Positions 26,465 to 47,495 of a stretch of DNA of 64,000 nucleotides are shown piece by piece; positions within the stretch are counted from its first letter, which is position 1; every line of letters starts with the position of its first letter. The translations under genes were made by a program, and so were the position numbers. Below the pieces are notes generated by a model, which saw only the letters and a program-made list of their open reading frames with translations, had not been told where the DNA came from and did no database searches. Location: NCBI RefSeq assembly GCF_023660105.1, contig NZ_JAMHGA010000038.1, positions 124,001 through 188,000 on the forward strand, in the 5' to 3' direction. This stretch comes from Desulfovibrio aminophilus. Its GTDB lineage: Bacteria > Desulfobacterota > Desulfovibrionia > Desulfovibrionales > Desulfovibrionaceae.

Positions 26465-27396
26465 ACGGGGACCGCGCCGGCCGCCTGCTCTTCCAGACCC
26501 AGCACATCCAGGGTCTGTTGCGGCTCTGCGGCTGGAGCCTGCTCCTGACGCCGACCCTGGTGGCCGTCGTGGCGCTGGTCGCCGTGGGCGAGGGGCTGCC
26601 CCTGGGCTGGGCCCTGCTGCTCATCCTCTCGGGCCTGGCCCTGGCCCTGCTGGCGGCGCTGTTCCTGGCCCGCCTCCTGGGGCGGCGCATCATCGAGCCC
26701 CTGGGACGCCTGCTGCGCGCGGCCCAGGACATCCGCGAGGGCCATTACGGGACCACGGTGGACCCAACCACTTTCCAGGATTCCCCGCTGGAGTTCCGGC
26801 TCCTGGGACAGAGCTTCAACCGCATGTCCGAGACCACGCGCGAACACATCGAGGCCCTGGAACGGGCCACGATCACGGACCAGCTCACCGGGGTGAGCAA
26901 CCGGCGCTTCCTGGTCACCGAGGGCCCCCGGCTGCTGCGGGTCGCCCTGCGCTCCGGGGCCGCCTTTTCCTGCCTGATGATCGACATCGACCACTTCAAG
27001 CGGGTCAACGACCAGCACGGCCATCTCGTGGGCGACCGCTTCCTGGCGCACCTGACCCGGGTGGTGAGCGCCACCATCCGCACCTCCGACCTCCTGGCCC
27101 GGGCCGGGGGCGAGGAGTTCGTGGTCCTGGCCCCCAACTCCGGCACGGAAGAGGCCCGGCTCCTGGCCGAGCGCATCCGCCTGGCCGTGGTCCGCACCCC
27201 TTACGTGGACGGCGAGACGCGCATCGACAACAGCGTGAGCATCGGCGTGGCCGAGCATGCCGCCGCCCCGCTCTTCGGCTCCAACGACTTCGAGGACATG
27301 CTCGAACGCGCCGACCGGGCGCTCTACCGGGCCAAGCAGATGGGCCGCAACCGGGTTGTGGCCTGGGGCGACGAGGAACCGGACCAGGACCTCTGA
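26461..27396 (+). CDS. membrane diguanylate cyclase (HAMP-like linker and GGDEF)
   Basis: Makes c-di-GMP from two GTP. The 311-residue protein has two membrane helices (about residues 20-44 and 49-73) with a very short periplasmic loop, then a HAMP-like linker, then a GGDEF domain from about residue 140. The signature is GGEEF (ARAGGEEFVVL), an active variant. ITDQLTGVSNRRF and MIDIDHFKRVND supply the metal and guanine contacts. I see no RxxD inhibitory site in the expected position five residues before GGEEF. It overlaps the preceding membrane-protein gene by ATGA. Confidence 0.93.
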   Translation: MNGDRAGRLLFQTQHIQGLLRLCGWSLLLTPTLVAVVALVAVGEGLPLGWALLLILSGLALALLAALFLARLLGRRIIEPLGRLLRAAQDIREGHYGTTVDPTTFQDSPLEFRLLGQSFNRMSETTREHIEALERATITDQLTGVSNRRFLVTEGPRLLRVALRSGAAFSCLMIDIDHFKRVNDQHGHLVGDRFLAHLTRVVSATIRTSDLLARAGGEEFVVLAPNSGTEEARLLAERIRLAVVRTPYVDGETRIDNSVSIGVAEHAAAPLFGSNDFEDMLERADRALYRAKQMGRNRVVAWGDEEPDQDL

Positions 27397-27482
27397 GCCC
27401 GGCCGGACTTGAATCCCCAACGGGCTTGGCCTATCGTCCCGGCCGGGCGCGCCGCCCGCCGAACCGACAACGAGGAACACGC

Positions 27483-29183
27483 ATGCGCTACGAACTGCGG
27501 CTGATGGACAACGTCGCCGGAGTGGGCTGCTTCATGGCCCATCCCGCCCAGAACCTGAGCTTCAACGACATGCTGGACTACCTGCGGGAGCATCCCCTGG
27601 ACGACTTCATGCACCAGTTCCTGCTCCAGGGCATGAGCGGCCACCGCACCCGCAAACTGGAAAAGCTCATCGACGAGGTGACCACGGGCGAACGCAAGGG
27701 CGATCTCGTGCTGGCCGCGCTCCTGCGCGAGACCTGCCTGGCCCACGAACGTTTCGCCCACCTCCTGCCCCGGCTGGAGGGCCTCGATCCCCGGGAGCTG
27801 GCCGCGCACACCCCGCTCATCCATATCCGTTCGAGCCTCGTGCCGGACCAGGACCTGCACCGCCAGTGGGTCCGGCTGTTCCAGGCCAACCTCGCGGTCC
27901 ACGCGCCCCTGCCCGCCCCCGACGAGGCGGGACTGGCCATGCCCTTCGCGCCCGAGGACCTGCCCGCCGGACCGGCCGTGACCGCGGCCCGGACCCGCGA
28001 CCGCCTGCGCGCCGAAGGCCGCCTGCCCGGGCCCCGCGAGCGCCGCACCCTGGAGGAGACCATCGCCCTGGCCTCGGAACGGCTGGAGAAGGTCGGCTGC
28101 ATCCTGACCCGGGAGATGGCCCACAAGGCGTCCCTGAGCCCTTTCTCCCTGCTGCGCTCCTGGCTGGCGCGCTTCCGCGCGGACAACGGCCGCCAGGACG
28201 TCCAGTTCCAGGGCATGCAGACCGCCTACGGCCGGGGCCTGAGCATGGAGGCCGCCCGGGCGTCCTATCTCATGGAGATGTGCGAGCGCTATTCCTCCTA
28301 CGCGAGTTTCGACGCAAGCGGCATCCGGGGCTATGCCCGGGACTATCCCCTGGTCCACGGCAGCCACGCCGAGGTGTCCGCCCGGGCCGAGGCCCTGGAC
28401 CCCAACCTGCTGCGCCTGGAGGCCCCCTACACCGGCCAGAAGCTCTGGTGGATGGCGGCCGAGATGGCGGACGCCAAGGGCCGCCGCCCGATCCTCATTC
28501 CGGCCCAGCTGGTCTTCCTCTTCTGCAACCTGGACGAGCCCGCCCTGTTCAGCGCCCTGGGCTCCACCGGGCTGGCCTCCGGCAACACCCTGGAGGAGGC
28601 GCGGCTGGCCGGGCTCTGCGAGGTCCTGGAGCGCGACGCCGAGGCCGTGCGGCCCTTCGACCCGGCGCGCTGCTTTCGCCTGGAGACGGACGATCCCCAG
28701 GTGGGCAAGCTCCTTGATGACTACGCCGCCTGCGGCATCGCGCCCTGGATCCTGGACACGACCCCGGAGTTCGGCGTGCCCTGCTGGAAGTCCATCGTCC
28801 TGGGCCGCCGGGGCGACGTGAACAAGGGCATGGGCTGCGGCCTCTCCGGCCGCCGGGCCCTGGTCTCGGGCATGACCGAGACGCCCTATCCCTTCCCGGG
28901 TCCGGCCGGATCGCCCGCGCCCGAGGGGCTGCCCGCGCGCCGCCTGGAGGACCTGCCGGAGATCGGCACCGGCAGCCCGGAAGGCGACCTGCTCGTGCTG
29001 GAGGAGACCCTCATCGCCAACGGCTATCCGGTGATTCACGCGGACCTGACCCGCAAGGACCTGGGCATCCCGGTGGCCCGGGCCATCGTGCCGGGGCTGG
29101 AGATCGTGGCCGACTTCGACCAGTTCTCGCGCCTGAGCCCGAGGCTCTTCGCCAATTATCTGCGGATGTTCGAGGGGAAATGA
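27483..29183 (+). CDS. YcaO-domain protein
   Basis: A 566-residue protein whose C-terminal two thirds are a YcaO domain. STGLASGNTLEEARLAGLCE followed by VLERDA is the family's ATP/Mg-binding helix, and RGLSMEAARASYLMEMCERY is the preceding conserved helix. YcaO enzymes activate peptide amides with ATP to make azolines or thioamides, or assist ribosomal protein S12 methylthiolation. The N-terminal 200 residues form an extra domain of unknown type. No precursor peptide, dehydrogenase or maturation partner is adjacent, so the substrate is open. The ATG follows GAGGAAC. Confidence 0.88.
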   Translation: MRYELRLMDNVAGVGCFMAHPAQNLSFNDMLDYLREHPLDDFMHQFLLQGMSGHRTRKLEKLIDEVTTGERKGDLVLAALLRETCLAHERFAHLLPRLEGLDPRELAAHTPLIHIRSSLVPDQDLHRQWVRLFQANLAVHAPLPAPDEAGLAMPFAPEDLPAGPAVTAARTRDRLRAEGRLPGPRERRTLEETIALASERLEKVGCILTREMAHKASLSPFSLLRSWLARFRADNGRQDVQFQGMQTAYGRGLSMEAARASYLMEMCERYSSYASFDASGIRGYARDYPLVHGSHAEVSARAEALDPNLLRLEAPYTGQKLWWMAAEMADAKGRRPILIPAQLVFLFCNLDEPALFSALGSTGLASGNTLEEARLAGLCEVLERDAEAVRPFDPARCFRLETDDPQVGKLLDDYAACGIAPWILDTTPEFGVPCWKSIVLGRRGDVNKGMGCGLSGRRALVSGMTETPYPFPGPAGSPAPEGLPARRLEDLPEIGTGSPEGDLLVLEETLIANGYPVIHADLTRKDLGIPVARAIVPGLEIVADFDQFSRLSPRLFANYLRMFEGK

Positions 29184-30686: not shown

Positions 30687-30971
30687 AGAAAATCCCCCAA
30701 TAAGCCCGCATGTTGCCTCCGCCCAAAAAAGAAAGGATTGCTCGCGCCCTCTCCAGGCGGCGGATCAGCGGCGAGGAATCGTGCAGCTTTTATGGCAAAC
30801 ACATCGCAAAACGCCCCCAAGATTCTCGCAAACAAAACTCGCAAAGGCGACGCCACCAGCGGCAACAAGCAAACATTATTGATTTTAGTAAAAAGCCAGC
30901 ACCCTTCAAACCTCTTGGTACGCCTGTTGCTACCGGGAGCCGATTGCTGAATCAGTCCCGCCCCGAATGTC

Positions 30972-30980
30972 TGGTATAAG
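30972..30980 (+). promoter_or_regulatory. extended -10 element upstream of the Rnf operon
   Basis: TGGTATAAG fits the TGnTATAAT extended -10 pattern and lies about 38 bases before the cytochrome start. No good -35 is visible, which is tolerated when the extended -10 is present. Confidence 0.5.
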
Positions 30981-31018
30981 GACTATGGAGCGGCAACGTC
31001 GGACCAAGGCAAGGCACC

Positions 31019-31504
31019 ATGAGCAAACGGTACTATCCCATCGCCGCCATCACGGCGGTCCTGTGCCTGGTGGCCGTTTTCGGCTACCTGCACATCGCCC
31101 CGGCCCAGGGCACGCCCCCGCGCATCGTCCTGGACAACGCCGGAGGCCGAGTCCTCTTCAGCCACGGGCACCATGCCGACGATCTCGGCCTGGCCTGCGG
31201 CGACTGTCACCACGACGGAGCGGACCCGGCGAACCCCGAGGCCTGCGGCGCATGCCACCCGGCCGCGTTCGACGCCACCTTCAAGGCGACCCACCGGACC
31301 GCCTTCAAGAGCATCGACGCCTGCACCCGCTGCCACGCCTCGCCGCCCAAGCCCGACCAGACCGTGACCGACCGGCCCGACGTCTCCGGCATCCCCCTGC
31401 GCGCCGACGCCTTCCATGCCCAGTGCATGAACTGCCACGAGAACATGAGCGCGGGGCCGTTCGGCAAGGAAAGCTGCAACGCCTGCCATCTGCAAAGGAA
31501 ATGA
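31019..31504 (+). CDS. multihaem cytochrome c of the Rnf operon
   Basis: A 161-residue exported cytochrome with an N-terminal signal/anchor (AAITAVLCLVAVFGYLHIA) and five CxxCH haem sites (CGDCH, CGACH, CTRCH, CMNCH, CNACH). Extra histidines, for example HGHHADD before the first site, could be axial ligands as in class III cytochromes c3, which usually have four haems. In Desulfovibrio the Rnf complex is preceded by such a cytochrome, which probably links the periplasmic cytochrome c3 pool to the complex. Its stop overlaps a possible rnfC start. Confidence 0.92.
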   Translation: MSKRYYPIAAITAVLCLVAVFGYLHIAPAQGTPPRIVLDNAGGRVLFSHGHHADDLGLACGDCHHDGADPANPEACGACHPAAFDATFKATHRTAFKSIDACTRCHASPPKPDQTVTDRPDVSGIPLRADAFHAQCMNCHENMSAGPFGKESCNACHLQRK

Positions 31505-31506
31505 GC

Positions 31507-32658
31507 ATGCGCAAGCCAACGTTTTCGCTGCACAGCCCCCTGTCCGCCGAGATCATCGACATCCCGGCCCCGGACTGGCTGAACCTCTATGTCTGCGGCT
31601 ACGACATCCAGGTCCAGCGCGGCCAGAAGCTGGCCGAGGGCGCGGGACTGGCCAAGCACCCCAAGCCCCTGGGCGGCATCGTACACGCGCCCATGAGCGG
31701 CGTGGTGGACAAGGCCGACTTCGCCTACGTGACCATGAAGGCGTCGCCCACGATCGAGCCGCTGCCGCCCGTGGAGCTGCCCGAGGACGCCGACGGCCTG
31801 CGCGAGGCCCTGCGGACCCTCGGGGTGCGCATGGACCGCTTCATGCAGAGCCGCGAGGTCCTGGTCGTCAACGGGGTCAACCCCGAGCCCACGGTGTCCG
31901 TGGCCGAGCAGCTCATGCGAGACGCCCAGCCCACGCTGCTGCGCGGGCTGGAGGCCGTGCGCAGGCTCATCCAGCCCAAGCGCACCGTCCTGGTCACCGC
32001 CACCCAGGACCAGACCCTGCCGGACTGCGAGACGGTGCGGGTCAAACCGGTCTATCCCAACTCCCTGGCCGACCTGACGGTGCTCGCCGCCACGGGCCGG
32101 GAGAAGCCGGAGAACGCCATCGCGGTGAGCGTGATGAAGCTCTGGTTCATCGGCCGGATCATGGAAACCGGCCGTCCGGTGACGGACACGGTGTTCACCC
32201 TGGCGGGCAAGAACTACCGCGCCATCCTCGGCACGCCGCTGTCCTACATCCTGGAGTTCGCGGGCGTGCCCATCAACGCGGGCGACCGCCTGGTGATCGG
32301 CGGCCCCATGCGCGGCTACACGGTCTACGACGTGGACCACGGCCTGGAGAAGGGCGCCTACGCCGTGACCGTGGTGCCCAAGGACGCCTTTCCCCCAATG
32401 GTCGGCGATCCCTGCATCAACTGCAGCGAGTGCGTCCTGCACTGTCCGGCGCGCATCCGGCCGGACATGATCGGCCGCTACGCCGAGTACGGCCAGTTCG
32501 AGAAGACCCTGGCCTACGGCCTGGCCTCCTGCATGGAGTGCGGCCAGTGCTCCTACTGGTGCACGGCGCGCCGCCCCCTGCTGCACTACATCCGCTTCGC
32601 CCGCAAGGAGCTGGCCGACGCGGCCAACCCCTGGCCCATGAACGGAGTGGTCCATTGA
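31507..32658 (+). CDS. rnfC: Rnf electron transport complex subunit C
   Basis: The NADH- or ferredoxin-side peripheral subunit of the Rnf complex, with FMN and two [4Fe-4S] clusters. The 383-residue protein carries CINCSECVLHCP and CMECGQCSYWC near residues 300-345, which are the cluster ligands, and the NuoF-like middle domain. The N terminus is shorter than in many RnfC proteins and the glycine-rich NADH loop is not clear, so the electron donor may be different, for example the RnfB-fused flavin domain. Start 31507 is preferred because AAAGGA has correct spacing; ATG 31501 would be too close. Confidence 0.92.
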   Translation: MRKPTFSLHSPLSAEIIDIPAPDWLNLYVCGYDIQVQRGQKLAEGAGLAKHPKPLGGIVHAPMSGVVDKADFAYVTMKASPTIEPLPPVELPEDADGLREALRTLGVRMDRFMQSREVLVVNGVNPEPTVSVAEQLMRDAQPTLLRGLEAVRRLIQPKRTVLVTATQDQTLPDCETVRVKPVYPNSLADLTVLAATGREKPENAIAVSVMKLWFIGRIMETGRPVTDTVFTLAGKNYRAILGTPLSYILEFAGVPINAGDRLVIGGPMRGYTVYDVDHGLEKGAYAVTVVPKDAFPPMVGDPCINCSECVLHCPARIRPDMIGRYAEYGQFEKTLAYGLASCMECGQCSYWCTARRPLLHYIRFARKELADAANPWPMNGVVH

Positions 32659-32686
32659 ACGCCCAACGGATGAACGAGGAGTTCGC

Positions 32687-33667
32687 ATGGCTGCCCTTGT
32701 CGTAAAACCACACGCCATCACCCAGATCCGCCTCACGGTCGGTCCGCCGTCCCACTGGCGCTGCGGCCGGACCCTGGGGTCGCTCATGGCCCTCTCCTGC
32801 CTGGCCCTGCTCCCGGCCCTGGGCATGGGCGTCTGGCGCTACGGCCTGGACGCCGCCCGCGTGGCGGCCCTGGCCGGCGCAGTGGCCGTGATCAGCGAAA
32901 TCCTGCTGGAGAAGCTGGCCGGACGCGAGGTGGACGTGGACAACGGCACGGCCCTCTTCCACGGCCTGCTCCTGGCCATGCTCCTGCCCGCCACGGCCCC
33001 CTGGTGGCTCGTGGTCGCGGGCGGCTTCTGCACCATCGCCCTGGGGCGCACGGTCTTCGGCGGCTTCGGCTCCAACCCCTTCTGCCCGCCGCTCATCGGC
33101 TGGGCCGTGTGCGAGGTCTCCTGGCCCAAATACATGGACCTCGACCTCATGCTCGCCCACTGGCCCACCCCGGACCCGCTGGCCCAGCTCAAGTACCTGG
33201 GCGCCGCGGCCGTCGACCACCTGCCCCTGGCCGACCTCTTCCTGGGCAACCAGTTGGGCGCGCTCGGCGCTGCCCAGGGGGCGGCCCTGCTGGCGGGCGG
33301 CCTGTTCCTGATCGCCTCCGGCCGCCTGCGGCCGCACATCCCCCTGGCCTTCCTGACCGGCGTGGCGGCCATGGCCGCCGTGTTCCACGGCCTGGACCCC
33401 CTGGCCCAGGCGGGCCCCCTGTTCCACCTCTGCACCGGCTCGGTGCTGCTAGGCGCCTTCTTCCTGGCCCCGGACCCCGGCTCCTCGCCCTCGGGCCACT
33501 GGGCCATGCTCCTCTACGGCTTCCTGGCCGGAGTCCTGGTCCTGGTCATCCGCCAGTGGGGCATCTATCCGGACGGCGCGCCCTTCGCCATCCTGCTGGC
33601 CAACCTCCTGGCCCCGCTCCTGGACCGCATCCGGCCGAAGTTCTTCGGAGGCAGACGCCATGCGTGA
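32687..33667 (+). CDS. rnfD: Rnf complex subunit D, apparently lacking the flavinylation threonine
   Basis: A 326-residue membrane subunit with about nine helices, related to NqrB. Family segments VFGGFGSNPFCPPLIGWA and ADLFLGNQLGALG are intact. In RnfD/NqrB the covalent FMN is attached to a Thr in a motif like SGAT-PL just before that second segment; here the corresponding site reads WPTPDPLAQL (residues 159-168), with Asp163 where the Thr should be. It therefore may not carry covalent FMN, although RnfG does and ApbE is present. The TGA lies within the start of rnfG (8-base overlap). Confidence 0.9.
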   Translation: MAALVVKPHAITQIRLTVGPPSHWRCGRTLGSLMALSCLALLPALGMGVWRYGLDAARVAALAGAVAVISEILLEKLAGREVDVDNGTALFHGLLLAMLLPATAPWWLVVAGGFCTIALGRTVFGGFGSNPFCPPLIGWAVCEVSWPKYMDLDLMLAHWPTPDPLAQLKYLGAAAVDHLPLADLFLGNQLGALGAAQGAALLAGGLFLIASGRLRPHIPLAFLTGVAAMAAVFHGLDPLAQAGPLFHLCTGSVLLGAFFLAPDPGSSPSGHWAMLLYGFLAGVLVLVIRQWGIYPDGAPFAILLANLLAPLLDRIRPKFFGGRRHA

Positions 33668-34241
33668 AATCATCAAGATGATCGTGGTCCTGTCGCTCAT
33701 CGGCACGGCCTCGGGCTTCACCCTGGCCTCGCTCAAGGAGGCCACCCGGACCCGGATCGAGGAACAGGTGCTGACCTTCGTGCAGGGGCCGGCCCTGGCC
33801 GCCGTGCTCCCCGAGCATGAGAACAACCCCATCGCCGACCGCCGCAAGATGGCCCTGCCCGACGGCTCGCAGGTCACGGTCTATCCGGCGCTCTCCGGCG
33901 GCAAGCTGGTGGCCCTGGGCATCGAGGGCCACGGCCCGGGCTACGGTGGCAACGTCGGCGTGATGGTCTCCTTCGATCCGGGCCGCGACGTGGTCCAGGC
34001 CATCGGCGTGACCACCCATTCCGAGACCCCGGGACTGGGCACCCGCGTGTTCCAGCCCGCGGTGACCGCCCGCTACAAGGACCACGCCCTGACCGGACTC
34101 GACCTCAAGAACAAGGGCGGCGACATCGACGCCGTGTCCGGGGCGACCTACTCCTCCACGGGCATGGTCATGGCCGTGCGCAAGGCCGCCGAGGCATACA
34201 CCGCAATCAAGCCGGGCGCCCTGGCCGCCTGGCCGCGCTGA
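33660..34241 (+). CDS. rnfG: Rnf complex subunit G, FMN-binding
   Basis: A 193-residue subunit with one N-terminal membrane helix (IIKMIVVLSLIGTASGFTL) and a periplasmic FMN-binding domain. DAVSGATYSS holds the flavinylation threonine, T163, to which ApbE attaches FMN by a phosphoester bond. HSETPGLGTRV is also a family motif. It would take electrons from the membrane core and exchange them with the cytochrome. The start overlaps rnfD by 8 bases. Confidence 0.95.
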   Translation: MREIIKMIVVLSLIGTASGFTLASLKEATRTRIEEQVLTFVQGPALAAVLPEHENNPIADRRKMALPDGSQVTVYPALSGGKLVALGIEGHGPGYGGNVGVMVSFDPGRDVVQAIGVTTHSETPGLGTRVFQPAVTARYKDHALTGLDLKNKGGDIDAVSGATYSSTGMVMAVRKAAEAYTAIKPGALAAWPR

Positions 34242-34254
34242 CAGGGAGGGCCGC

Positions 34255-34938
34255 ATGGGACGCGCCGTCAAGGAATTCACCAAGGGACTGTGGCGGGAAC
34301 TGCCGCCGTTCCGCATCGTGCTCGGCCTCTGTCCGACCCTGGCCGTGACCACCAGCGCCAAGAACGGCCTGGGCATGGGTTGCGCGGTGATCTTCGTGCT
34401 CGTGGTCTCCAACTTCCTGGTGGCCCTGCTGCGCAAGGTCATCCCCTCGAAGGTCCGCATCGCCTGCTTCATCCTCGTCGCGGCCACGGTGGTGGTGGCG
34501 GTGGAGCTGCTCATGCAGGCGTACACCTACCCGCTCTATCTTGAGCTCGGCATCTTCGTGCCGCTCATCGTGGTCAACTGCATCATCCTGGGCCGCGCCG
34601 AGGCCTTCGCCTCGCGCAACCCGATCTTCCTCTCGGTGTTGGACGGGCTCGGAATGGGCCTGGGCTTCACCATGTCGCTGACCTTCCTGGGCGGCCTGCG
34701 CGAGCTCATCGGAGCGGGCACCATCTTCGGCAAGATCGTGACCTGGTCGAGCTTCGAGCCCATGACCATCCTGGTCAAGGCGCCCGGCGCGTTCATCTGC
34801 CTGGGCCTCATCCTGGCCGGAATGAACGCGCTCAACCGCTGGAACGCCAAGCGCCACGAGAACGAGCCGCCGCGGGCCCTGGAGGCCGTCAGCTCGTGCT
34901 CGACCTGCGGCAGCTGCAAGTTGTGCTCCCGGGACTAG
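34255..34938 (+). CDS. rnfE: Rnf complex subunit E
   Basis: A 227-residue membrane subunit homologous to NqrD, with six helices and LGLCPTLAVTTSAKNGLGMG at the N terminus, where the conserved Cys is one of the ligands of the intramembrane iron-sulfur centre shared with RnfA. VNCIILGRAEAFASRN supplies the second. The C-terminal tail has a further cysteine cluster, CSTCGSCKLC, which is not usual for RnfE and could bind a metal in the cytoplasm. It lies in the rnfCDGEAB order. Confidence 0.95.
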   Translation: MGRAVKEFTKGLWRELPPFRIVLGLCPTLAVTTSAKNGLGMGCAVIFVLVVSNFLVALLRKVIPSKVRIACFILVAATVVVAVELLMQAYTYPLYLELGIFVPLIVVNCIILGRAEAFASRNPIFLSVLDGLGMGLGFTMSLTFLGGLRELIGAGTIFGKIVTWSSFEPMTILVKAPGAFICLGLILAGMNALNRWNAKRHENEPPRALEAVSSCSTCGSCKLCSRD

Positions 34939-34959
34939 CGGGCGCGGAGGAGACGAATC

Positions 34960-35535
34960 ATGGAATACTTCCTGCTCATCATCTCGGCGGTGTTCATCAA
35001 CAACATCGTCCTGGTGCAATACCTCGGAACCTGCCCCTTCCTCGGCACCTCCAAGTCCACGGACGTGGCCCTGGGCATGGGCGGGGCGGTGATCTTCGTC
35101 ACCGGCATGGCCGTGGCCCTGACCTGGCCGATCCAGAAGATGCTCCTGGAGCCCTACGGCCTGGACTATCTCCGCACCATCGTCTTCATCCTGGTCATCG
35201 CCTCCCTGGTGCAGTTCGTGGAAATGTTCCTGAAGAAGATGGTCCCGCCCCTGTATCGGGCCCTGGGCCTCTACCTCCCGCTCATCACCACCAACTGCGC
35301 GGTGCTCGGCTCGGCCCTGCTGGTGCAGAAGAACTCCTACGGCTTCACCAAGTCCGTGGTCTTCGGCCTGGCCACCGGCGTGGGCTTCACCCTGGCCCTG
35401 GTGATCATCTCGTCCATCCGCGAGCGGTTCGACATCTCCCCCATCCCCCACGTCTTCCGGGGAGTGCCCATCGCGCTCATCACGGCGGGTCTCATGTCGC
35501 TCGCCTTCCTGGCCTTCACCGGCATGGCTTCGTAA
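34960..35535 (+). CDS. rnfA: Rnf complex subunit A
   Basis: A 191-residue membrane subunit homologous to NqrE. FINNIVLVQYLGTCPFLGTS and PLITTNCAVLGSALL carry the inverted-topology Cys pair that, with RnfE, holds the membrane iron-sulfur centre. Six hydrophobic helices are evident. It is 21 bases downstream of rnfE and 10 bases upstream of rnfB. Confidence 0.96.
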   Translation: MEYFLLIISAVFINNIVLVQYLGTCPFLGTSKSTDVALGMGGAVIFVTGMAVALTWPIQKMLLEPYGLDYLRTIVFILVIASLVQFVEMFLKKMVPPLYRALGLYLPLITTNCAVLGSALLVQKNSYGFTKSVVFGLATGVGFTLALVIISSIRERFDISPIPHVFRGVPIALITAGLMSLAFLAFTGMAS

Positions 35536-35545
35536 GGGAGTAATC

Positions 35546-37678
35546 ATGGTCACCACTTCGGTTCTGGTCGTGTTCGGTCTCAGTCTGGCGGCGGCCCTGC
35601 TCCTGGCCGCGGCCTCCAAGATATTCTCGGTCAAGGAAGACCCGCGCGTGGCCGAGGTCGAGGGCGTGATGCCCGGGGCCAACTGCGGCGGCTGCGGCTA
35701 TCCCGGCTGCTCAGCGGCGGCCGCCGCCGTGGTGGCGGGCGAGGCCCCGCCCGAGGTCTGCGTGGCGGGCGGCATGGACGTGGCCGAGGCCATCGCCAAG
35801 GTCATGGGTCTGGCCGTGGCCTACAAGGAGCCCAAGGTCGCCTCGCTCATCTGCTCCGGCGGCGACCGGGCGCGCCAGATGTTCGCCTACGAGGGCGTGC
35901 GCGACTGCCGCGCCGAGGCCATGCTCTACGGCGGCGAGAAGACCTGCGGCATGGGCTGCATCGGCATGGGCTCCTGCGTCCGGGCCTGCCCCTTCGGGGC
36001 CGTGCGCCTCGGCGAGGAAGGCCTGCCCATCGTGAACAAGGCGCTCTGCCGTTCCTGCGGCAAATGCGCCGAGGTCTGCCCCACCGGAGCCATCCGCATC
36101 ACGAGCTTCTCGGCCAGCCTGCTGCACGTGAACAAGCTCGACGACTGCCTGGCCCCCTGCATGCAGAAGTGCCCGGTGCAGCTCGACGTGCGGACCTTCA
36201 TCCAACAGATCAAGAGCGGCGACTACCGGGCCGCCCTGCTGACGCTCAAGAACCGCAACCCGCTGCCGGCCATCGTGGGCCGCGTCTGCCCCCACCCCTG
36301 CGAAGACATCTGCCGCCGCAAGCTGGTGGACGAGGGCGTGGCCATCAACACCTTGGAGCGGTTCGTGTCCGACTGGGAGATGCACTCCGGCCAGCGCGTG
36401 CCCATCCACTGCGGCCCGGACACCGGGATCAAGATCGCCATCGTGGGCGGCGGCCCCTCGGGCCTGTCCTGCGCCTACTTCCTGCGCCGCCTGGGCCACC
36501 ACCCGGTGATCTTCGAATCCCGGGCCGAGGCGGGCGGCCTGCTGCGCTACGCCGTGCCGGAGTTCCGCCTGCCCCGCCACGTGGTGGACTGGGAGGTCCA
36601 GGGCATCCTGGACCTGGGCGTGGAGTTGCGCACCTACATGACCCTGGGCCGCGAGTTCACGCTCCAGGATTTGGAGGACCAAGACTTCAAGGCCGTGTTC
36701 CTGGCCACCGGCGCCTGGACCACCCCGCTCCTGGACATCCCCGGCGCGGACGCCCGCAACATCCAGGGCGGCGTGGAGTTCCTCACCGGCATCGGCTCGC
36801 TCTGGTCCTCGCTGCGCAACCAGAGCGTGGTCATCATCGGCGATACGAACACGGCCCTGGACTGCGCCCGCGCCGTGGCCCGCATGGGCGCGCGCCGCAC
36901 CGTGGTCCTCTCACCGAACATCCAGCGCAAGATGGCCGCCAACAAGGAAGAGGTCGAGCGGGCCAAGGAGATCGGGGCCGAGGTGCTCTTCCAGACCCTG
37001 CCCGTGTCCATCGTCACCGACGGCTCGGGCCGAGGCACCAAGGTCTGGTTCCAACGCTGCCGCTACAAGGACCAGGAAAAGGCCGCCGGCGACATCATCC
37101 CCCTGCCGGACACCGACGAGATCATCGAGGACGTGGACCTCATCATCGCGGCCACGGACCGCAAGCCCGACCTGACCCCCTACGGCGAGGCCAGCGGATT
37201 GGAGGGTCTGAAACGCAGCCGCTCCGGCACCCTGGAAGGCGACGACACGACCATGGGGACCAACCTGCCGAACGTCTTCGTGGGCGGCGAGCTGCGCCGG
37301 GGCCGCTCCATCGTGATGGAGGCCGTGACCGACGGCCGCCGGGCCGCCCGCTCCATCCATCTCTTCGTGACCAGCGGCGATGTGGCCCGCCCGGTGGAAC
37401 CCCAGGTCCGCGTCATCCCCGAGAGCATCCTCAAGGACATGCGCGTGAAATACACCATCCCCCGCGTCATCGCCCCGGAAATCCCCGTGGACATGCGGCG
37501 GCAGCACTTCACCATGGAGGTGCGCCGGGGCATCCAGGAGCGCGAGGCGATCAAGGAGTCCAGCCGCTGCCTGCGCTGCGGCCTGACCTGCTATGACGCC
37601 GAGGCCGGATTCGAATTCGCCGGAGACCGGGACGTGAAGCCCCATCCCGGCTCCCGCAAGGAGCAAGGCAATGCCTGA
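35546..37678 (+). CDS. rnfB: Rnf subunit B fused to a GltD-like FAD/NAD(P) oxidoreductase
   Basis: A 710-residue fusion. Residues 1-30 are a membrane helix and residues 40-75 hold the RnfB [4Fe-4S] motif (C47, C50, C55, C72). Residues about 128-190 form a 2[4Fe-4S] ferredoxin (CGMGCIGMGSC and CRSCGKCAEVCP). From about residue 195 the protein becomes like the small subunit of glutamate synthase: a cysteine domain (CLAPCMQKCP, CPHPCEDICRRK), an FAD loop (AIVGGGPSGLSCAYFLR) and a second nucleotide-binding region (VVIIGDTNTALDCARAVARM). Ordinary RnfB proteins end after the ferredoxins. The extra flavin module may bring NAD(P)H to the complex. Its end overlaps apbE by 8 bases. Confidence 0.93.
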   Translation: MVTTSVLVVFGLSLAAALLLAAASKIFSVKEDPRVAEVEGVMPGANCGGCGYPGCSAAAAAVVAGEAPPEVCVAGGMDVAEAIAKVMGLAVAYKEPKVASLICSGGDRARQMFAYEGVRDCRAEAMLYGGEKTCGMGCIGMGSCVRACPFGAVRLGEEGLPIVNKALCRSCGKCAEVCPTGAIRITSFSASLLHVNKLDDCLAPCMQKCPVQLDVRTFIQQIKSGDYRAALLTLKNRNPLPAIVGRVCPHPCEDICRRKLVDEGVAINTLERFVSDWEMHSGQRVPIHCGPDTGIKIAIVGGGPSGLSCAYFLRRLGHHPVIFESRAEAGGLLRYAVPEFRLPRHVVDWEVQGILDLGVELRTYMTLGREFTLQDLEDQDFKAVFLATGAWTTPLLDIPGADARNIQGGVEFLTGIGSLWSSLRNQSVVIIGDTNTALDCARAVARMGARRTVVLSPNIQRKMAANKEEVERAKEIGAEVLFQTLPVSIVTDGSGRGTKVWFQRCRYKDQEKAAGDIIPLPDTDEIIEDVDLIIAATDRKPDLTPYGEASGLEGLKRSRSGTLEGDDTTMGTNLPNVFVGGELRRGRSIVMEAVTDGRRAARSIHLFVTSGDVARPVEPQVRVIPESILKDMRVKYTIPRVIAPEIPVDMRRQHFTMEVRRGIQEREAIKESSRCLRCGLTCYDAEAGFEFAGDRDVKPHPGSRKEQGNA

Positions 37679-38705
37679 CGCCATCCTCACCCGCCGTCAG
37701 TTCCTCCGCGCCGGAGGCCTCCTGGGCCTGGGCCTGACCCTGGCCCCGACCCTGGCCGCGGCCGAAATCGCCGCAACCGAACGCCTGCGCGTGGAGCGGA
37801 CCCGTTTTCTCATGGGCACCTTCGTGACCATGACCGTCGTGAACCCATCGCAGGACCGGGCCGAAGAGGCCATCGAGGCGGCCTTCGCCGAGATGGAGCG
37901 CCTCCGCGGCATCCTGGATCGCCACCGCGACGACACCCCCCTGTCCCACCTGAACCGGCATGGATCGCTCCGGGACGCCCCCCCGGAGCTGTCGTTCCTG
38001 GTGGAACGGGCGTTGCGGACGCGCGACGTCGCCCAGGGAGCATTCGACCCTACGGTGCTCCCGCTGGTGACCCTGCTCAAGGACCGGGCCGGCCGAGCCC
38101 CCGGCGATCCCGGTCCCTCCCGCGCCGAAATCCGCGAGGTCCTCGATCTCGTGGACGCCGGGGCGGTCGGTCTCGATTCCGGGACCGTTCGCCTCGGCCG
38201 GCAGGGCATGAGCCTGACCCTGGACGGCATCGCCAAGGGCTACATCGTGGACCGCGCTTCGGAGACCCTGCGGCGCTTCGGCGCGGCGGATCATCTCGTC
38301 AACGCCGGCGGCGACATCCGGGCCTCCGGCGGGCCGAAGCCCGGCCGCCCCTGGAGCGTGGCCGTGGAGGATCCCGAGCGGCGCGGCCGCTACCCCTCGG
38401 TCATCCTCCTGCGCGAGGGTGCGGTGGCCACCTCGGGCAGCTACGAGGCTCCCATCGGCCCCTCCGGCAAGCTCCACCACATCGTGGACCCGCGCACCGG
38501 CGGCTGTCCCCGACAGATCACCAGCGTCTCCGTGGCCGCCCCCTCGGCCATGGAGGCCGACGCCCTGGCCACGGCCCTCTTCGTCCTGCCCCCGGGACAG
38601 GCCCTGGCCACGGCGGACGCCCTCCCCGGGCGGGCCTGCCTCCTGATCTCCTCCTCGGGAGCTCAGGCCCGTTCTCGGGATTGGGCCGCCTTTGAGAAGG
38701 CCTGA
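37671..38705 (+). CDS. apbE: FAD:protein FMN transferase (ApbE), Tat-exported
   Basis: Attaches FMN to threonines of RnfG/RnfD-type proteins outside the membrane. The 344-residue protein has a twin-arginine signal, LTRRQFLRAGG, so it is exported folded. FLMGTFVTMTV, QGAFDPTVLPLV, DGIAKGYIVDRA and NAGGDIRASG are ApbE family motifs, and the Mg-binding aspartates lie in the C-terminal part. It is the last gene of the operon and is followed by a terminator. It is sometimes named rnfF in Desulfovibrio. Confidence 0.95.
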   Translation: MPDAILTRRQFLRAGGLLGLGLTLAPTLAAAEIAATERLRVERTRFLMGTFVTMTVVNPSQDRAEEAIEAAFAEMERLRGILDRHRDDTPLSHLNRHGSLRDAPPELSFLVERALRTRDVAQGAFDPTVLPLVTLLKDRAGRAPGDPGPSRAEIREVLDLVDAGAVGLDSGTVRLGRQGMSLTLDGIAKGYIVDRASETLRRFGAADHLVNAGGDIRASGGPKPGRPWSVAVEDPERRGRYPSVILLREGAVATSGSYEAPIGPSGKLHHIVDPRTGGCPRQITSVSVAAPSAMEADALATALFVLPPGQALATADALPGRACLLISSSGAQARSRDWAAFEKA

Positions 38706-38747: not shown

Positions 38748-38800
38748 GAGGCCGGCTCCCGCGCGATGCGCAAGCGTCGCCGGAGCCGGCCTCGCCTTTT
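38748..38800 (+). terminator. terminator of the Rnf operon
   Basis: GAGGCCGGCTCC and its exact complement form a 12-bp stem around a 22-base loop, followed by GCCTTTTCCC. It lies about 40 bases after apbE. Confidence 0.75.
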
Positions 38801-38837: not shown

Positions 38838-38867
38838 TTGACACCTCCCTCCCTTTGCGCCTAATTC
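38838..38867 (+). promoter_or_regulatory. candidate promoter giving a leaderless transcript
   Basis: A consensus -35, TTGACA, is followed 17-18 bases later by a weak -10 (CTAATTC). A start 6-10 bases further falls at or next to the ATG at 38877. No Shine-Dalgarno precedes that ATG. Confidence 0.45.
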
Positions 38868-38876
38868 CAGTGTGTC

Positions 38877-40850
38877 ATGGCCCAACTCTTCAGGACCAAG
38901 CGGCTTTTCAAGTCGCCCTACTTCCCTGGCATCCTCCGCGCCGTGTCCGTGGCCCTGCTGGCGTTGGGCGTCTATTACCTTCTGGAAGGGCCGCAGAACC
39001 CCACGGAAAACCCGAGCCACGTGCTCATGTGGCTCTTCTGGTGGCCCCTGTTCATCGTCCAGTACCTGCTCCTGGGCCGTTTCTGGTGCGCGGTCTGCCC
39101 CTTCGGCTGCCTGGGCGACGGGCTGCGCGCGAGCTGCGGCCTGAACCTGCCCGTGCCCAACTGGATCAAGAAATACGGCCCGCTCATCATCGGCTTCTGC
39201 CTGCTGCTCATCGTCTGGGCCGAGGAGGCCTTCGTCATTCCCTCCGATCCGAAGGCCACGGCCATCCTGCTTCTGGTCGTGATCGGCTGCGTGCTGGCGG
39301 CCTCGGCGGTGTTCGAGCGCCGGGCCTGGTGCCGCTACATGTGTCCCCTGGGCGGCATGGGCGTGGCCTACGCCCGGGTCGGCATGCTCCAAATCCGAGG
39401 CAACCCGGACAAGTGCCGCACGTGCAACGCCGCCATCTGCTACTACGGCAACAGCCAGGTGGCGGGCTGCCCGATGAACGAATTCCCGCGCATCAAGGAG
39501 ACCAACGCCTACTGCATCTTCTGCGGCAACTGCGTGAAGTCCTGCCCCAAGGACTCGGCCAAGGTGGAGCTCCGGCTGCCCTCCCGCGAGCTCTGGCTCC
39601 TCCGCAAGCCCGGGCTCATGGAGGCGATCCTCTCCGTGCTCCTGGGCGGAATCATCTCGGCCACCCAGTTCCAGCACGCCTTCCCCGAGGTGATCGACCT
39701 GCTCACCCGGCACTTCGGCTTCCGCACCGGCTTCACCTTCTTCTTCCTGGCCTGGCAGTTCCTCTTCCTCGCGGGTCTGGCCCTGGCCAGCCAGGCGGCC
39801 ACCCTGCTCAACGGCGTGTCCGTGAAGATGAACTTCTCGGTCTTCAGCTACGCCATCATCCCGCTCATCCTGGGCGCGCACCTGGCCCAGGGCCTGCACC
39901 TCTTCGCCCGGGGCAGCGCGGTGCTGCAATGGATGGCGAAGCAGCGCTACGGCCTGGACCTGCCCCTGGGCATGTCCCCCGACGCCACGCTCCTGCATGT
40001 GGTCCAATATCTCTCGCTGGTCATCGGCCTGTCCCTCTCCCTGGCCGCCGTGCGCTACGCCGCGGGGACGTTCTTCAGCCGCCAGCACAAGATCTGGGCC
40101 TCCATCGCGCCCTTCGCCGCCACCTTCATCGTCCTCTTCGGGGTCTTCGCCTGGATTCTGAGCCGTTCCCCCCGGGAGAACCTCGCCCCGCTGCCCAGCG
40201 ACATGGAGGTCGGCGCGCCGGGCCTGGAGCCGCTCTGGTGGTTCCTCGGCTTCACGGTCGTGGTCATCGTCGCGGCGCGCCTCTGCGAACCTCTGATCCG
40301 CCGCCGCCAAGCCAAACGCCCGGGCCAGGCCGAGCCGGCCAGGAAGCTGAGCCTGGTGGTCAAGAACGAGGCCAGCGAGATCGTCACCGCCGAGCGCGCC
40401 CTCACCCGCCTGGCCCAGGCGGCGGGCATCGGGGTGAAGCCCATCTTCGACGCCTGCACGGCCCTGGAAGAGCTCATGACCTACGCCCTGCTGCGTCACC
40501 TGGAGCATGAGAACGACCAGCGGGCGGCGGTGGAGTCGTATGGCACGCGGGCCCTGGCCCGCCTGCTCGACGGCCGCCGCCCGGAGCTGGAGCTGGCCTT
40601 CACGGTGCTGCCCCAGGCCATCATCATCGAGATGGCCGAGGATGGCCCACCGGACGACCCCCTGGCCTCCCTGGGGCCCGACACGGAGGAGGCCCTGACC
40701 ACGGGCTCCCGCGCGGACCGGCAAATATACCGGCTCCGCAGATACATGTCCGCCCTGAGCTACGACCGCCGCAACGGCAAGAACGTGCTCACCGTCGTCT
40801 GCAACTTCGAGAACGGCGAAGACCCCAAGAATCTGTCCCGCCTCCGCTGA
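38877..40850 (+). CDS. NapH-like Fe-S membrane protein fused to an anti-sigma-kinase-like domain
   Basis: A 657-residue fusion. Residues 1-480 form a polytopic protein with NapH/CcoG-type cysteine motifs (CAVCPFGCLGDG, CRYMCPLGGMG) and a ferredoxin part (CRTCNAAIC, CIFCGNCVKSCP), between at least ten hydrophobic helices. Residues about 490-657 resemble the RsbW/HATPase_c_2 domain of anti-sigma kinases: SLVVKNEASEIVTAERAL at the start, FDACTALEELMTYALLRH at the N-box, EDGPPDDPLASL at the G1 box and NGKNVLTVV at the end. The N-box Asn is replaced by Tyr and the G2 glycines are missing, so kinase activity is doubtful. It may pass a redox signal to a partner-switching system. Confidence 0.85.
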   Translation: MAQLFRTKRLFKSPYFPGILRAVSVALLALGVYYLLEGPQNPTENPSHVLMWLFWWPLFIVQYLLLGRFWCAVCPFGCLGDGLRASCGLNLPVPNWIKKYGPLIIGFCLLLIVWAEEAFVIPSDPKATAILLLVVIGCVLAASAVFERRAWCRYMCPLGGMGVAYARVGMLQIRGNPDKCRTCNAAICYYGNSQVAGCPMNEFPRIKETNAYCIFCGNCVKSCPKDSAKVELRLPSRELWLLRKPGLMEAILSVLLGGIISATQFQHAFPEVIDLLTRHFGFRTGFTFFFLAWQFLFLAGLALASQAATLLNGVSVKMNFSVFSYAIIPLILGAHLAQGLHLFARGSAVLQWMAKQRYGLDLPLGMSPDATLLHVVQYLSLVIGLSLSLAAVRYAAGTFFSRQHKIWASIAPFAATFIVLFGVFAWILSRSPRENLAPLPSDMEVGAPGLEPLWWFLGFTVVVIVAARLCEPLIRRRQAKRPGQAEPARKLSLVVKNEASEIVTAERALTRLAQAAGIGVKPIFDACTALEELMTYALLRHLEHENDQRAAVESYGTRALARLLDGRRPELELAFTVLPQAIIIEMAEDGPPDDPLASLGPDTEEALTTGSRADRQIYRLRRYMSALSYDRRNGKNVLTVVCNFENGEDPKNLSRLR

Positions 40851-44990: not shown

Positions 44991-47495
44991 ATGGAGCAAC
45001 AGGAACTGAGGGCCTGGGAACAGCGCTGCATCCAGGAGGAATTGCCCTGGTGCCAGGCGGCCTGCCCGCTGCACGTGGACGTGCGCGCGTTTCTGGAGCG
45101 CATGGCCAAGGGCGACCCGGCCGGGGCCCGCAAGGTGCTGGAGCGGAGCCTGCCCCTGTCCGGCGTCCTTGGAAGGCTCTGCGAGCATCCCTGCGAAACG
45201 GTCTGCAAGCGCGCCGAGGCGGGCGACGCCCTGGCCGTCGGCGACCTGGAGCGGGCCTGCGTGGGCTCCGCTCCCGCCGGGGCCAGACCCACGGTCCTGC
45301 CCTCCCGGGGCAAGCGCGCCGCCGTGCTCGGCGGCGGACTCGCCGCCCTGGTCTGCGCCTGGGATCTGTTGCGCAAGGGCTACGGCGTGACCTTCCTCGT
45401 CGCCGACGACGCCCTCGGCGGCCGCCTGCGCGGCCTGCCCGAATCCCGGCTCCCCAAGGCCGCCCTGGAGGAGGAGCTTGCCCGCGTCCTGGCCCTCAAG
45501 CCCGAGGTCCGCGCCGGGCAATCCCTGGACGCGGCCCTGCTGGACCAAGCCCTGTCCGAATTCGCGGCCGTGTTCGCGGACCTCTCCGAGGCCCCCGGTC
45601 TGGCCCGGGACGAGCGCTCGGCCGTGGATCCCGTGACCCTGGCCGGGGACCGTTCCGGCCTCTTCCTGGGCGGGTTCTCCGCGCCCAACGGCGTGTCCTT
45701 CATCGACCAGGCCGCCGACGGCCGCCGCGCCGCCTCGTCCATGGACCGGCACATGAGCGGCGTCTCGCTCACCGCCGCCCGCGAGAAAGAAGGCCCATGC
45801 GGGACGCGCCTGTTCACGAACCTCGCCGGGGTCGCGCCCCTGTCCCGGGTGGCCCCGGCGGCTCCCGAAAACGGCTACGCCCCGGAGGAGGCCGCCCAGG
45901 AGGCCGCGCGCTGCCTGAACTGTCAGTGTCTGGACTGCGTGCGGGCCTGCGCCTTCCTGGAGCGCTACAAGGGCTACCCCAAGAAATACGCCCGCCAAGT
46001 CTACAACAACGCGGCCATCGTCAAGGGCCTGCACGAGGCCAACCGCCTGATCAATTCCTGCAGCCTCTGCGGCCTGTGCGCGGAGGTCTGCCCCGAGGGC
46101 TTCGCCATGGCCGACCTCTGCCTGGAGGCCCGGCGCGACATGGTGGCCCGGGGCAAGATGCCGCCCTCGGCCCACGAATTCGCCCTGGAGGACATGGCCT
46201 TCAACAACGGCCCGGACTTCGCCCTGACCCTGCCCGGGCCGGACGGCGCGTGCGCCCACGTCTTCTTCCCCGGTTGCCAGCTGGCGGCCTCGCACCCGCA
46301 CCACGTGCGCTCGGTCTTCGAACACCTGCGCGCCGCACTCTCCGGCGGCGTGGGGCTCATGTTGCGCTGCTGCGGCATCCCGGCCCACTGGGCCGGGCGC
46401 GAGGACCTCTTCACCGAGGCCCAGGCCGCGTTCCGGGCCCAGTGGGAGGGCCTGGGGCGGCCGCGCATCGTGGCGGCCTGCTCCTCCTGCCTGGACATCC
46501 TCCGTCGCCGCTCGCCGGACCTGCCCGCGGTTTCGCTCTGGGAGGTCCTGGCCGAAACCGGCCTGCCCGAAACGCCGGGCGCGCCCGCGCCGAACGCCCC
46601 CCTGGCCGTGCACGACCCCTGCACCACGCGCCACGACGAGACCGCGCGCGCGGCCGTGCGCGGCCTGCTGGACAGTTGCGGCGTGGCCCGCGAGGAACTG
46701 CCCCTGTCCGGCCGCCTCACCGAATGCTGCGGCTACGGCGGGCTCATGTCCAACGTGGACCCGGACCTGGCCCACGAGGTGGCCGCCCGGCGCGCGGCCG
46801 CGAGCCCCTTGGATTACGTGGCCTCCTGCGCCATGTGCCGCGACCGGCTGGCCGCCGAGGGCAAGCGGGCCTACCACGTCCTGGATTTCATCTTCCCCGG
46901 CGGACCGGATGACCCGGCGGCCGCGCCTTCTCCGGGATTCTCGGCCCGCCACGCGGCCCGCGCCGGGCTGCGGCGCGAACTGGCCCGGGAATACCTCGGC
47001 CAGGCCGGGGAGGCGGAACCCGGCCCGGAACTGCGCATCGCGCCCGAGGTCCTGGCCCGCATGGAGGAGCGGCACATCCTGGTGGAGGACGTCCGCCGCG
47101 CGCTGGCCCACGCCGAGACCTCGGGACGCGTGTTCCGCGAGGCCGGAGGCGAACGCCTCCTCGCGCCCCACCGGCCGCGCAACGTGACCTACTGGCTGGA
47201 ATACGCCCGCGAGGGCGGCGCCTTCCGCGTCCTGGGGGCCTGGCGCCACCGCATGGAGGTGCGGCCGGGCGCGGGCGCGGCCGGGCTCAAGGTGGACCAG
47301 ACCTACACTCCGGACTCGGGCCGATGGTCCTGCGGCCACGACGCCCTGGAGCCCCGGCCGGTGGAGGCGACCTATCTCGGCAGCTCCTTCAACATCTCGC
47401 TCCTGGCCTGCCCGGAGTGCGGACTCTGCCTCGTGCCCGAGTCCCTGGCCCTGGGCCGCATGGCCGAGGTGGAGCGCCTGCTGGAGGACAAGTGA
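44991..47495 (+). CDS. multi-domain Fe-S redox protein (GltD-like, ferredoxin, CCG domains)
   Basis: An 834-residue fusion. Residues about 15-75 are a GltD-type cysteine domain (CQAACPLHVDVRAF, CEHPCETVCKR). Residues 108-260 keep a Rossmann loop (AAVLGGGLAALVCAW) but are too short for full FAD and NAD domains. Residues about 300-375 hold two cluster motifs (CLNCQCLDCVRAC, CSLCGLCAEVCP). Residues 420-640 form two CCG-type domains like those of HdrB/GlpC (FFPGCQ, LRCCGIPAHW; AVHDPC, TECCGYGG). The last 200 residues include CGHD and CPECGLC, resembling a small redox protein encoded separately in D. vulgaris. It probably feeds or drains electrons for the aldehyde oxidoreductase or its maturation. 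Confidence 0.82.
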   Translation: MEQQELRAWEQRCIQEELPWCQAACPLHVDVRAFLERMAKGDPAGARKVLERSLPLSGVLGRLCEHPCETVCKRAEAGDALAVGDLERACVGSAPAGARPTVLPSRGKRAAVLGGGLAALVCAWDLLRKGYGVTFLVADDALGGRLRGLPESRLPKAALEEELARVLALKPEVRAGQSLDAALLDQALSEFAAVFADLSEAPGLARDERSAVDPVTLAGDRSGLFLGGFSAPNGVSFIDQAADGRRAASSMDRHMSGVSLTAAREKEGPCGTRLFTNLAGVAPLSRVAPAAPENGYAPEEAAQEAARCLNCQCLDCVRACAFLERYKGYPKKYARQVYNNAAIVKGLHEANRLINSCSLCGLCAEVCPEGFAMADLCLEARRDMVARGKMPPSAHEFALEDMAFNNGPDFALTLPGPDGACAHVFFPGCQLAASHPHHVRSVFEHLRAALSGGVGLMLRCCGIPAHWAGREDLFTEAQAAFRAQWEGLGRPRIVAACSSCLDILRRRSPDLPAVSLWEVLAETGLPETPGAPAPNAPLAVHDPCTTRHDETARAAVRGLLDSCGVAREELPLSGRLTECCGYGGLMSNVDPDLAHEVAARRAAASPLDYVASCAMCRDRLAAEGKRAYHVLDFIFPGGPDDPAAAPSPGFSARHAARAGLRRELAREYLGQAGEAEPGPELRIAPEVLARMEERHILVEDVRRALAHAETSGRVFREAGGERLLAPHRPRNVTYWLEYAREGGAFRVLGAWRHRMEVRPGAGAAGLKVDQTYTPDSGRWSCGHDALEPRPVEATYLGSSFNISLLACPECGLCLVPESLALGRMAEVERLLEDK

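Follow-up and report, generated by a model that had tools for sequence, protein, structure and literature searches.

What does a domain resembling an anti-sigma kinase do at the end of a membrane-bound iron-sulfur protein? The question is raised by a gene of Desulfovibrio aminophilus (contig NZ_JAMHGA010000038.1, positions 124,001 to 188,000; this whole stretch of 64,000 nucleotides is here called the window, and positions are counted within it). The original prediction placed the gene at 38877-40850 on the plus strand, with 657 codons plus a stop, which is correct, and read its product as a membrane redox sensor acting by protein binding. We favor a different role. The product appears to be a NapH/NosR-like electron-transfer protein of the membrane, which in one genus may have been extended by one more helix and by an RsbW-fold domain in the cytosol. 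This domain would act as a nucleotide-independent dock for a soluble partner, be it a STAS protein or a second copy of the domain, and by docking would link this partner to the electron-transfer module, which would so be gated or positioned. The partner would control electron flow, and not electron flow the partner. We give this docking or gating role of the dead RsbW domain a probability of about 0.5; what we infer in it is on which side of the membrane each part lies, which cofactors there are, that a partner is bound and which way control runs.

The C-terminal domain and its ATP-binding boxes

The original prediction called the C-terminal domain RsbW-like, and structure prediction indeed returned the RsbW/SpoIIAB fold and not an unrelated one. 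The domain model, built on an alignment of 14 sequences (A3) of which 11 are canonical RsbW-like relatives, has a predicted local distance difference test score (pLDDT) of 81.8 and a predicted template modeling score (pTM) of 0.77. Its best Foldseek match is RsbW (E 6.4e-7), and structure Z-scores place it with RsbW (14.7; 2.3 Å over 115 residues), UsfX (13.8), SiaB (13.4) and SpoIIAB (13.1-13.2). The next fold class, the histidine kinases, begins at Z 7.5 with DesK, and the ChpT structure 4fmt scores 6.7. The full-length model, in which the domain is aligned with the three orthologues only and no canonical RsbW row, also gives RsbW (Z 12.9). Pfam HATPase_c_2 (PF13581) matches residues 498-641 at E 2.4e-6, its 28.0 bits just exceeding the cut-off of 27.4; orthologue L004 (genome G001) scores 25.4 bits, under the cut-off, and L005 has no match at E up to 0.01. 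L005 is the G002 row of the orthologue in Desulfovibrio sp. UBA4079 (locus L033), which is 73% identical to the window protein. A profile made from nine canonical RsbW-like proteins encoded as single genes (hereafter singles), with the fusion excluded, recovers the window domain at E 4.2e-9. Searched by phmmer, the domain sequence alone finds no related solved structure (one match, E 0.68); the A3 profile does reach solved structures, which says little on the window domain, as 11 of its 14 rows are the canonical relatives. A mixed alignment (A4) misplaced the RsbW-like rows against the N-terminus and was replaced by one without them (A5).

Three orthologues were compared, namely the window protein, L004 and L005. 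Damage to the putative ATP site exceeds what was first claimed, as all three nucleotide-binding boxes are altered in sequence. The replacement of the N-box asparagine by tyrosine, noted originally, is found in every orthologue (Tyr536) and in none of the 11 relatives, and the reported loss of the second glycine box (G2) likewise holds throughout: ADRQ, or AGRQ in L005, stands where all 11 relatives have a glycine box. The DGPP-DPLA box (G1), by contrast, had been taken as retained. The next G1 glycine is kept, and is itself Ala in relatives L142 and L149, but the invariant Asp of the relatives is Glu588 in all three orthologues, where in addition Asp593 aligns with Phe or Tyr of the relatives. 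Thus, although the domain shares with the anti-sigma serine kinases RsbW, SpoIIAB and UsfX a fold over 105-133 aligned residues and a kinship in sequence, it differs from them in its three altered boxes, its membrane tether and the lack of an adjoining STAS or sigma gene. The singles (L141-L147, L149, L150) are small, have no membrane part, lie next to a STAS gene and have N-box Asn, G1 Asp and G2 all in place. Because the ATP motifs are lost, phosphorylation is unlikely and protein binding likely, and the domain is probably a nucleotide-independent binding domain; the preference for binding over phosphorylation in the original prediction gains from these lost motifs and from the RsbW fold. 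GHKL-fold proteins that act by protein binding without using ATP include Spo0B and ChpT, although these, unlike what is proposed here, are phosphotransferases of two-component relays.

The altered domain looks like a maintained pseudo-enzyme under purifying selection and not a decaying one, because its ratio of nonsynonymous to synonymous substitution rates (dN/dS) is as low as that of the membrane half. By simple counting, the ratio in the domain is 0.12 (G001) and 0.34 (G002); the membrane half has 0.20 and 0.43.

The closest relatives found for the domain are small Desulfovibrionaceae RsbW proteins encoded beside STAS genes. A profile of the domain matches 13 of 247 family genomes (E up to 1e-4): three, all of one genus, carry the fusion, and ten carry RsbW-like open reading frames (ORFs) of 137-385 amino acids (aa). 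A STAS ORF adjoins nine of these ten single loci, judged with a STAS profile made from the seven STAS hits of the D. aminophilus genome, and a partner-switch ancestry of the domain is therefore likely. Within the three genomes of the genus, the best match to the single-gene RsbW subfamily is a 791 aa frame scoring 91-97 bits, where true singles score 172-208 bits; in D. aminophilus this frame is a SpoIIE-RsbW protein. G001 has an additional, weaker frame of 149 aa (61.9 bits with the profile of singles). This profile's 13 of 14 is no measure of frequency, since the 14 genomes were chosen, most of them for having a match. The D. aminophilus genome encodes two SpoIIE-type phosphatases, one of them (on C23) joined to an intact RsbW domain.

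The membrane module and its relatives

That the remainder is a polytopic iron-sulfur protein, as first described, is borne out by Pfam matches to Fer4_5 (E 5.6e-8) and Fer4_10 (E 1.5e-5) and by 12 cysteines invariant across 23 aligned rows: C71/C74, C152/C156 and eight more in two ferredoxin-type motifs, which by ferredoxin logic would be split between two [4Fe-4S] clusters. The combination of two membrane C-x2/3-C-P motifs with two [4Fe-4S] motifs places the protein among NapH/NosR-type modules in the wide sense. Membrane helices and two cysteine-proline motifs are shared with the NapH/NosR/PceC(RdhC) module (Fer4_5, PF12801), and the two [4Fe-4S] motifs with NapH and NosR, which excerpts of PMC5928378 describe as having a common membrane module of two CX3CP and two 4Fe-4S motifs. 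The membrane part of NapH is there proposed to oxidize quinol (PMC5928378; see also PMC8238504), and excerpts of PMC8238504 present NapH-like proteins as modular electron-transfer parts. The window protein differs from these systems in its first motif (CX2CP), in having about ten helices instead of four to six, and in its C-terminal RsbW-like domain. FMN_bind (flavin mononucleotide binding), a mark of NosR and RdhC, is absent from its Pfam families at E up to 1. The NCBIfam NapH/MauN model (TIGR02163) matches residues 134-230 only (E 7.8e-10), at 38.7 bits far under its cut-off of 213.05, and NapG is not among the nine neighboring proteins scanned with Pfam and NCBIfam. Against the PDB, a profile of the membrane half gave ferredoxin-type matches only (E 7.8e-5 or weaker). 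Comparison of the full-length model with known structures gave no convincing match to the membrane part, all Foldseek matches of E under 0.1 being to the RsbW fold; the absence of a match is weak evidence.

The full-length model is of moderate quality (pLDDT 74, pTM 0.67). Its long helices span residues 18-37, 46-66, 95-118, 125-145, 247-268, 282-312, 316-358, 371-399, 403-428 and 451-469. The last of these is particular to the fusion. Past residue 399, two hydrophobic stretches are found in the three orthologues but a single one in 19 of the 20 remaining rows, which stop within 29-42 residues; the twentieth, L009, is cut off by the end of its locus. Six lysine or arginine residues (K/R) fall within the 15 residues that follow hydrophobic segment 456-474, and K/R residues also lie near the N-terminus. 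The helix count and this charge would place both the C-terminal domain and the iron-sulfur loop that joins helices 4 and 5 in the cytosol, and the extra helix would be what carries the C-terminus there.

Table 1. Features of the fusion gene and its upstream region (window positions; A3 is the domain alignment)
Feature	Position	Strand	Evidence
Coding sequence, 657 aa: membrane iron-sulfur module and degenerate RsbW-like domain	38877..40850	+	657 codons + stop
Membrane module, residues 1-470	38877..40286	+	Predicted model, hydropathy, homology to other module rows
First membrane cysteine motif, C71-x2-C74-P75	39087..39101	+	2 Cys and Pro invariant, 23 rows
Second membrane cysteine motif, C152-x3-C156-P157	39330..39347	+	2 Cys invariant, Pro at least 90%, 23 rows
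Two putative [4Fe-4S] motifs: C180, C183, C188, C198, C213, C216, C219, C223	39414..39545	+	8/8 Cys invariant (23 rows), Fer4 families
Last helix, residues 451-469, fusion orthologues only	40227..40283	+	Second hydrophobic stretch past residue 399
Predicted RsbW/SpoIIAB-fold domain, residues 487-645	40335..40811	+	Pfam PF13581, model, fold matches
Degenerate N-box, E532-L-M-T-Y536	40470..40484	+	A3: Tyr 3/3 orthologues, Asn 11/11 relatives
Altered G1 box, E588-D-G-P-P-D-D-P-L596	40638..40664	+	A3: Glu 3/3 orthologues, Asp 11/11 relatives
Lost G2 box site, A613-D-R-Q616	40713..40724	+	A3: relatives with GGLG or similar
apbE (flavin transferase), final gene of the upstream rnf cluster	37671..38705	+	PF02424, E 1.9e-67
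Stem-loop resembling an intrinsic terminator, CCTTTT tail, between apbE and the gene	38748..38800	+	-42.5 kcal/mol, z -4.6
Promoter-like TTGACA-N16-CCTAAT, 11 bases before the ATG	38838..38865	+	Hexamers identical in 3 species

Membrane modules of this kind occur more widely. A profile of the membrane half matches 75 of 395 phylum genomes (E up to 1e-20; at most four candidates were scored per genome and 30 loci given). Of the 40 stretches taken, 38 come from 37 of the 75 matching genomes, which were picked for their scores instead of being drawn randomly, and the other two from G001 and G016. Some module proteins are standalone, of about 455 aa, while others carry an N-terminal sigma-54-type AAA+ domain with its lid. 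The AAA+ fusions comprise L098-L106, L110-L112, L118 and L006-L008, 16 tree rows being labeled AAA by module position. Nine were scanned with Pfam, three of them truncated upstream (L006, L111, L112); six have a cyclic-nucleotide (cNMP) domain, and of these one also has GAF domains and one an FHA domain. No DNA-binding family, helix-turn-helix included, is listed by Pfam for the scanned fusions. Motifs were counted in 14 AAA+ fusions, leaving out the truncated L006 and L112. The Walker-B Asp-Glu pair is gone in all 14, whereas the Walker A motif GxxGxGK is kept in 11; exact GAFTGA is found in none, and the sigma-54-contacting loop is lost in 13. For comparison, among the 30 highest-scoring of the 35 sigma-54 AAA+ domains in the D. 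aminophilus genome, 29 have the DE pair, 20 exact GAFTGA and all 30 the pattern G[AS][FY][TS]xA. The window protein and these AAA+ fusions are alike in joining a homologous module to a motif-degenerate regulatory ATPase domain, and differ in that the AAA+ domain stands at the N-terminus and the GHKL domain at the C-terminus. By their sequences, at least two unrelated regulatory ATPase domains of this degenerate sort are joined to this kind of membrane module, which may point to a more general means of coupling regulation to electron flow.

In a tree of 42 modules, the RsbW fusions form one clade (100/100) outside any supported AAA+ clade, and the deep order is unresolved. Three loci (L114, L116, L120) are missing from this tree, having no module gene in greedy ORF calls. 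The nearest module to the RsbW-fusion clade by path is the standalone L133. This gene (L133:712-2822) follows one for a small, probably exported protein with a His/Met/Asp-rich stretch, presumably FixH/YtkA-like, a hint of a metal-linked role. The few neighbors of the standalone relatives that were read by eye looked like housekeeping genes, the other neighbors being grouped by clustering. YHS or cytochrome c domains are also found on the same membrane module (L113:5247-7430, L115:5182-7398), and L108, L109 and L113 each have two homologous membrane modules within a few kilobases. In the open-licence PMC literature, titles and the opening lines of abstracts describe neither a NapH-type/RsbW fusion nor a cNMP-AAA+-NapH fusion.

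Proposed docking and its alternatives

Docking and control of the module are favored because the sister AAA+ fusions carry ligand-reading domains (cNMP, GAF, FHA) and mostly lack the residues needed for sigma-54 output. The fusion of regulatory domains to membrane transporters is an established theme in the text excerpted from PMC10710835. If the domain does gate or dock the iron-sulfur module, it would give anaerobes a direct post-translational link from partner switches or second messengers to membrane electron transfer, bypassing transcription. On a broader scale, the window protein and the AAA+ fusions could exemplify a so far undescribed class of proteins, in which a membrane iron-sulfur conduit for electrons is governed by a signaling ATPase that is fused to it and has lost its catalytic activity, a generalization that we offer tentatively and hold to be possible, short of probable. 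Within such a class, AAA+ domains reading cNMP, GAF or FHA signals in several lineages of the phylum might bind ATP but should not hydrolyze it, and the dead RsbW domain, acquired independently, would respond to a partner-switch protein. Domains that once controlled transcription would then serve as valves acting directly on respiratory electron flow. Since none of the 14 AAA+ fusions has the Walker-B acidic pair, one question, the effect of the domain on electron transfer, is testable across several unrelated proteins.

Several observations weigh against the docking reading. The UBA4079 domain is shorter around G1 and G2, with an identity of 0.42-0.44 there, which fits a partly relaxed constraint. 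The full-length model, as predicted, shows no readable contact between the two domains, and the sidedness on which a cytosolic dock depends rests on helix count and charge. The direction of control is drawn from relatives in other families, whose fused domain sits at the opposite end of the protein. Among these, L118 keeps GSFSFA, a loose form of GAFTGA, and the control set consists of the genome's best-scoring AAA+ domains and so is biased to intact motifs. As to a partner, the genome has seven PF01740 places (STAS_2 was not searched), but none adjoins the gene, and the only one on this contig lies about 54 kilobases upstream. One single-domain STAS protein with an SSAG site (L186:4109-4507; G000:C44:230189-230491), with no RsbW-like ORF seen adjoining, is a candidate partner.

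The opposite flow of information was proposed originally: as a membrane redox sensor, the protein would let electron flow alter the hold of its domain on a STAS or sigma partner, and the freed partner would change gene expression. The RsbW fold and the STAS-linked ancestry of the domain speak for this, and partner-switch proteins are there to tap, given the single-domain SSAG STAS protein and the two SpoIIE-type phosphatases of the genome. We nevertheless consider it unlikely. No STAS or sigma gene adjoins, the genome has only five Sigma70_r2 proteins, and the sister AAA+ fusions are without the motifs needed for transcriptional output, their input-type domains pointing at least equally to regulation of the membrane module. 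NosR offers a precedent, as excerpts of PMC5928378 recount: initially named a regulator, it was later reinterpreted as an activation and electron-transfer factor.

The domain might also be a structural leftover, its RsbW fold kept for dimerization or stability of the membrane protein without a dedicated partner. RsbW and SpoIIAB are dimers, the ATP motifs are lost, and the linker and G2 loop differ among species, all of which would suit such a role. Yet stretches such as KPIFDACTALEELMTYALLR and RRNGKNVLTVV are identical in all three orthologues, suggesting a specific surface, dN/dS is as low in the domain as in the membrane half, and the extra helix looks gained for cytosolic placement of the domain, so that we regard a leftover as distinctly improbable. 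An active ATP-dependent kinase with unusual residues is highly implausible: Glu532, invariant in A3, is still there and HATPase_c_2 passes its Pfam cut-off narrowly, but the N-box Asn, the G1 Asp and the G2 glycines are replaced in all three species.

Transcription and neighboring genes

The ATG at 38877 is the first possible start, with an in-frame TAA at 38862, and its position is kept in the three species. Upstream lie rnfC-D-G-E-A, a long rnfB and apbE (30967-38705); downstream come a MoCF_biosynth gene and a molybdenum aldehyde oxidoreductase gene. The terminator-like stem-loop that follows apbE has a counterpart in G001 (z -4.0). A consensus scan for terminators and promoters listed neither this stem-loop nor the promoter-like site, since it limited loops to 3-8 bases and required A at position 2 of the -10 element. 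The promoter-like site is the sole match in the window at up to one mismatch; the pattern was derived from the site itself, so that only its conservation counts. UBA4079 differs at most of the first ten spacer bases with the hexamers unchanged. There, 34 bases separate apbE (Pfam E 4.9e-62) from the gene, the apbE stop falls inside TTGACA, and the stem is absent, with no room for it. Independent, near-leaderless transcription is thus likely in two species, judging from these sequence signals.

The original prediction tied the gene to electron flow through its position just after Rnf. The position stands, as rnf genes and apbE precede the fusion gene in all three species of the genus, but the functional link is weak, because the terminator-like stem separates the gene from apbE in two of the three species and the promoter-like site is present in all three. 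Across 41 neighborhoods, with flanks of 6-7 kilobases at best and several ended by contig ends, rnf or apbE genes (E up to 1e-8) were found in two, both of this genus, and in none of the other 39.

Some further features of the window were observed. RnfB (35546-37678, 710 aa) carries a fused NAD(P)H oxidoreductase domain of GltD-like type (Fer4_20 and Pyr_redox_2), a form also present in L033. Directly before rnfC, a 161 aa ORF (31019-31504) with five CxxCH motifs encodes a small multihaem cytochrome; the rnfC ORF as listed (from 30967) runs over it in a different frame, and its start probably lies too far upstream. The reverse-strand frame of the fusion ORF is open, with an odd composition, and was taken for a shadow frame (a family search was not made). 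Directly past the molybdenum aldehyde oxidoreductase gene, 44991-47492 encodes an 834 aa protein with Fer4_20, 4Fe-4S dicluster, CCG and DUF7479 domains. Finally, a long ORF occupies 26253-29183, the C-terminal part of which resembles, we presume, a YcaO-type protein.

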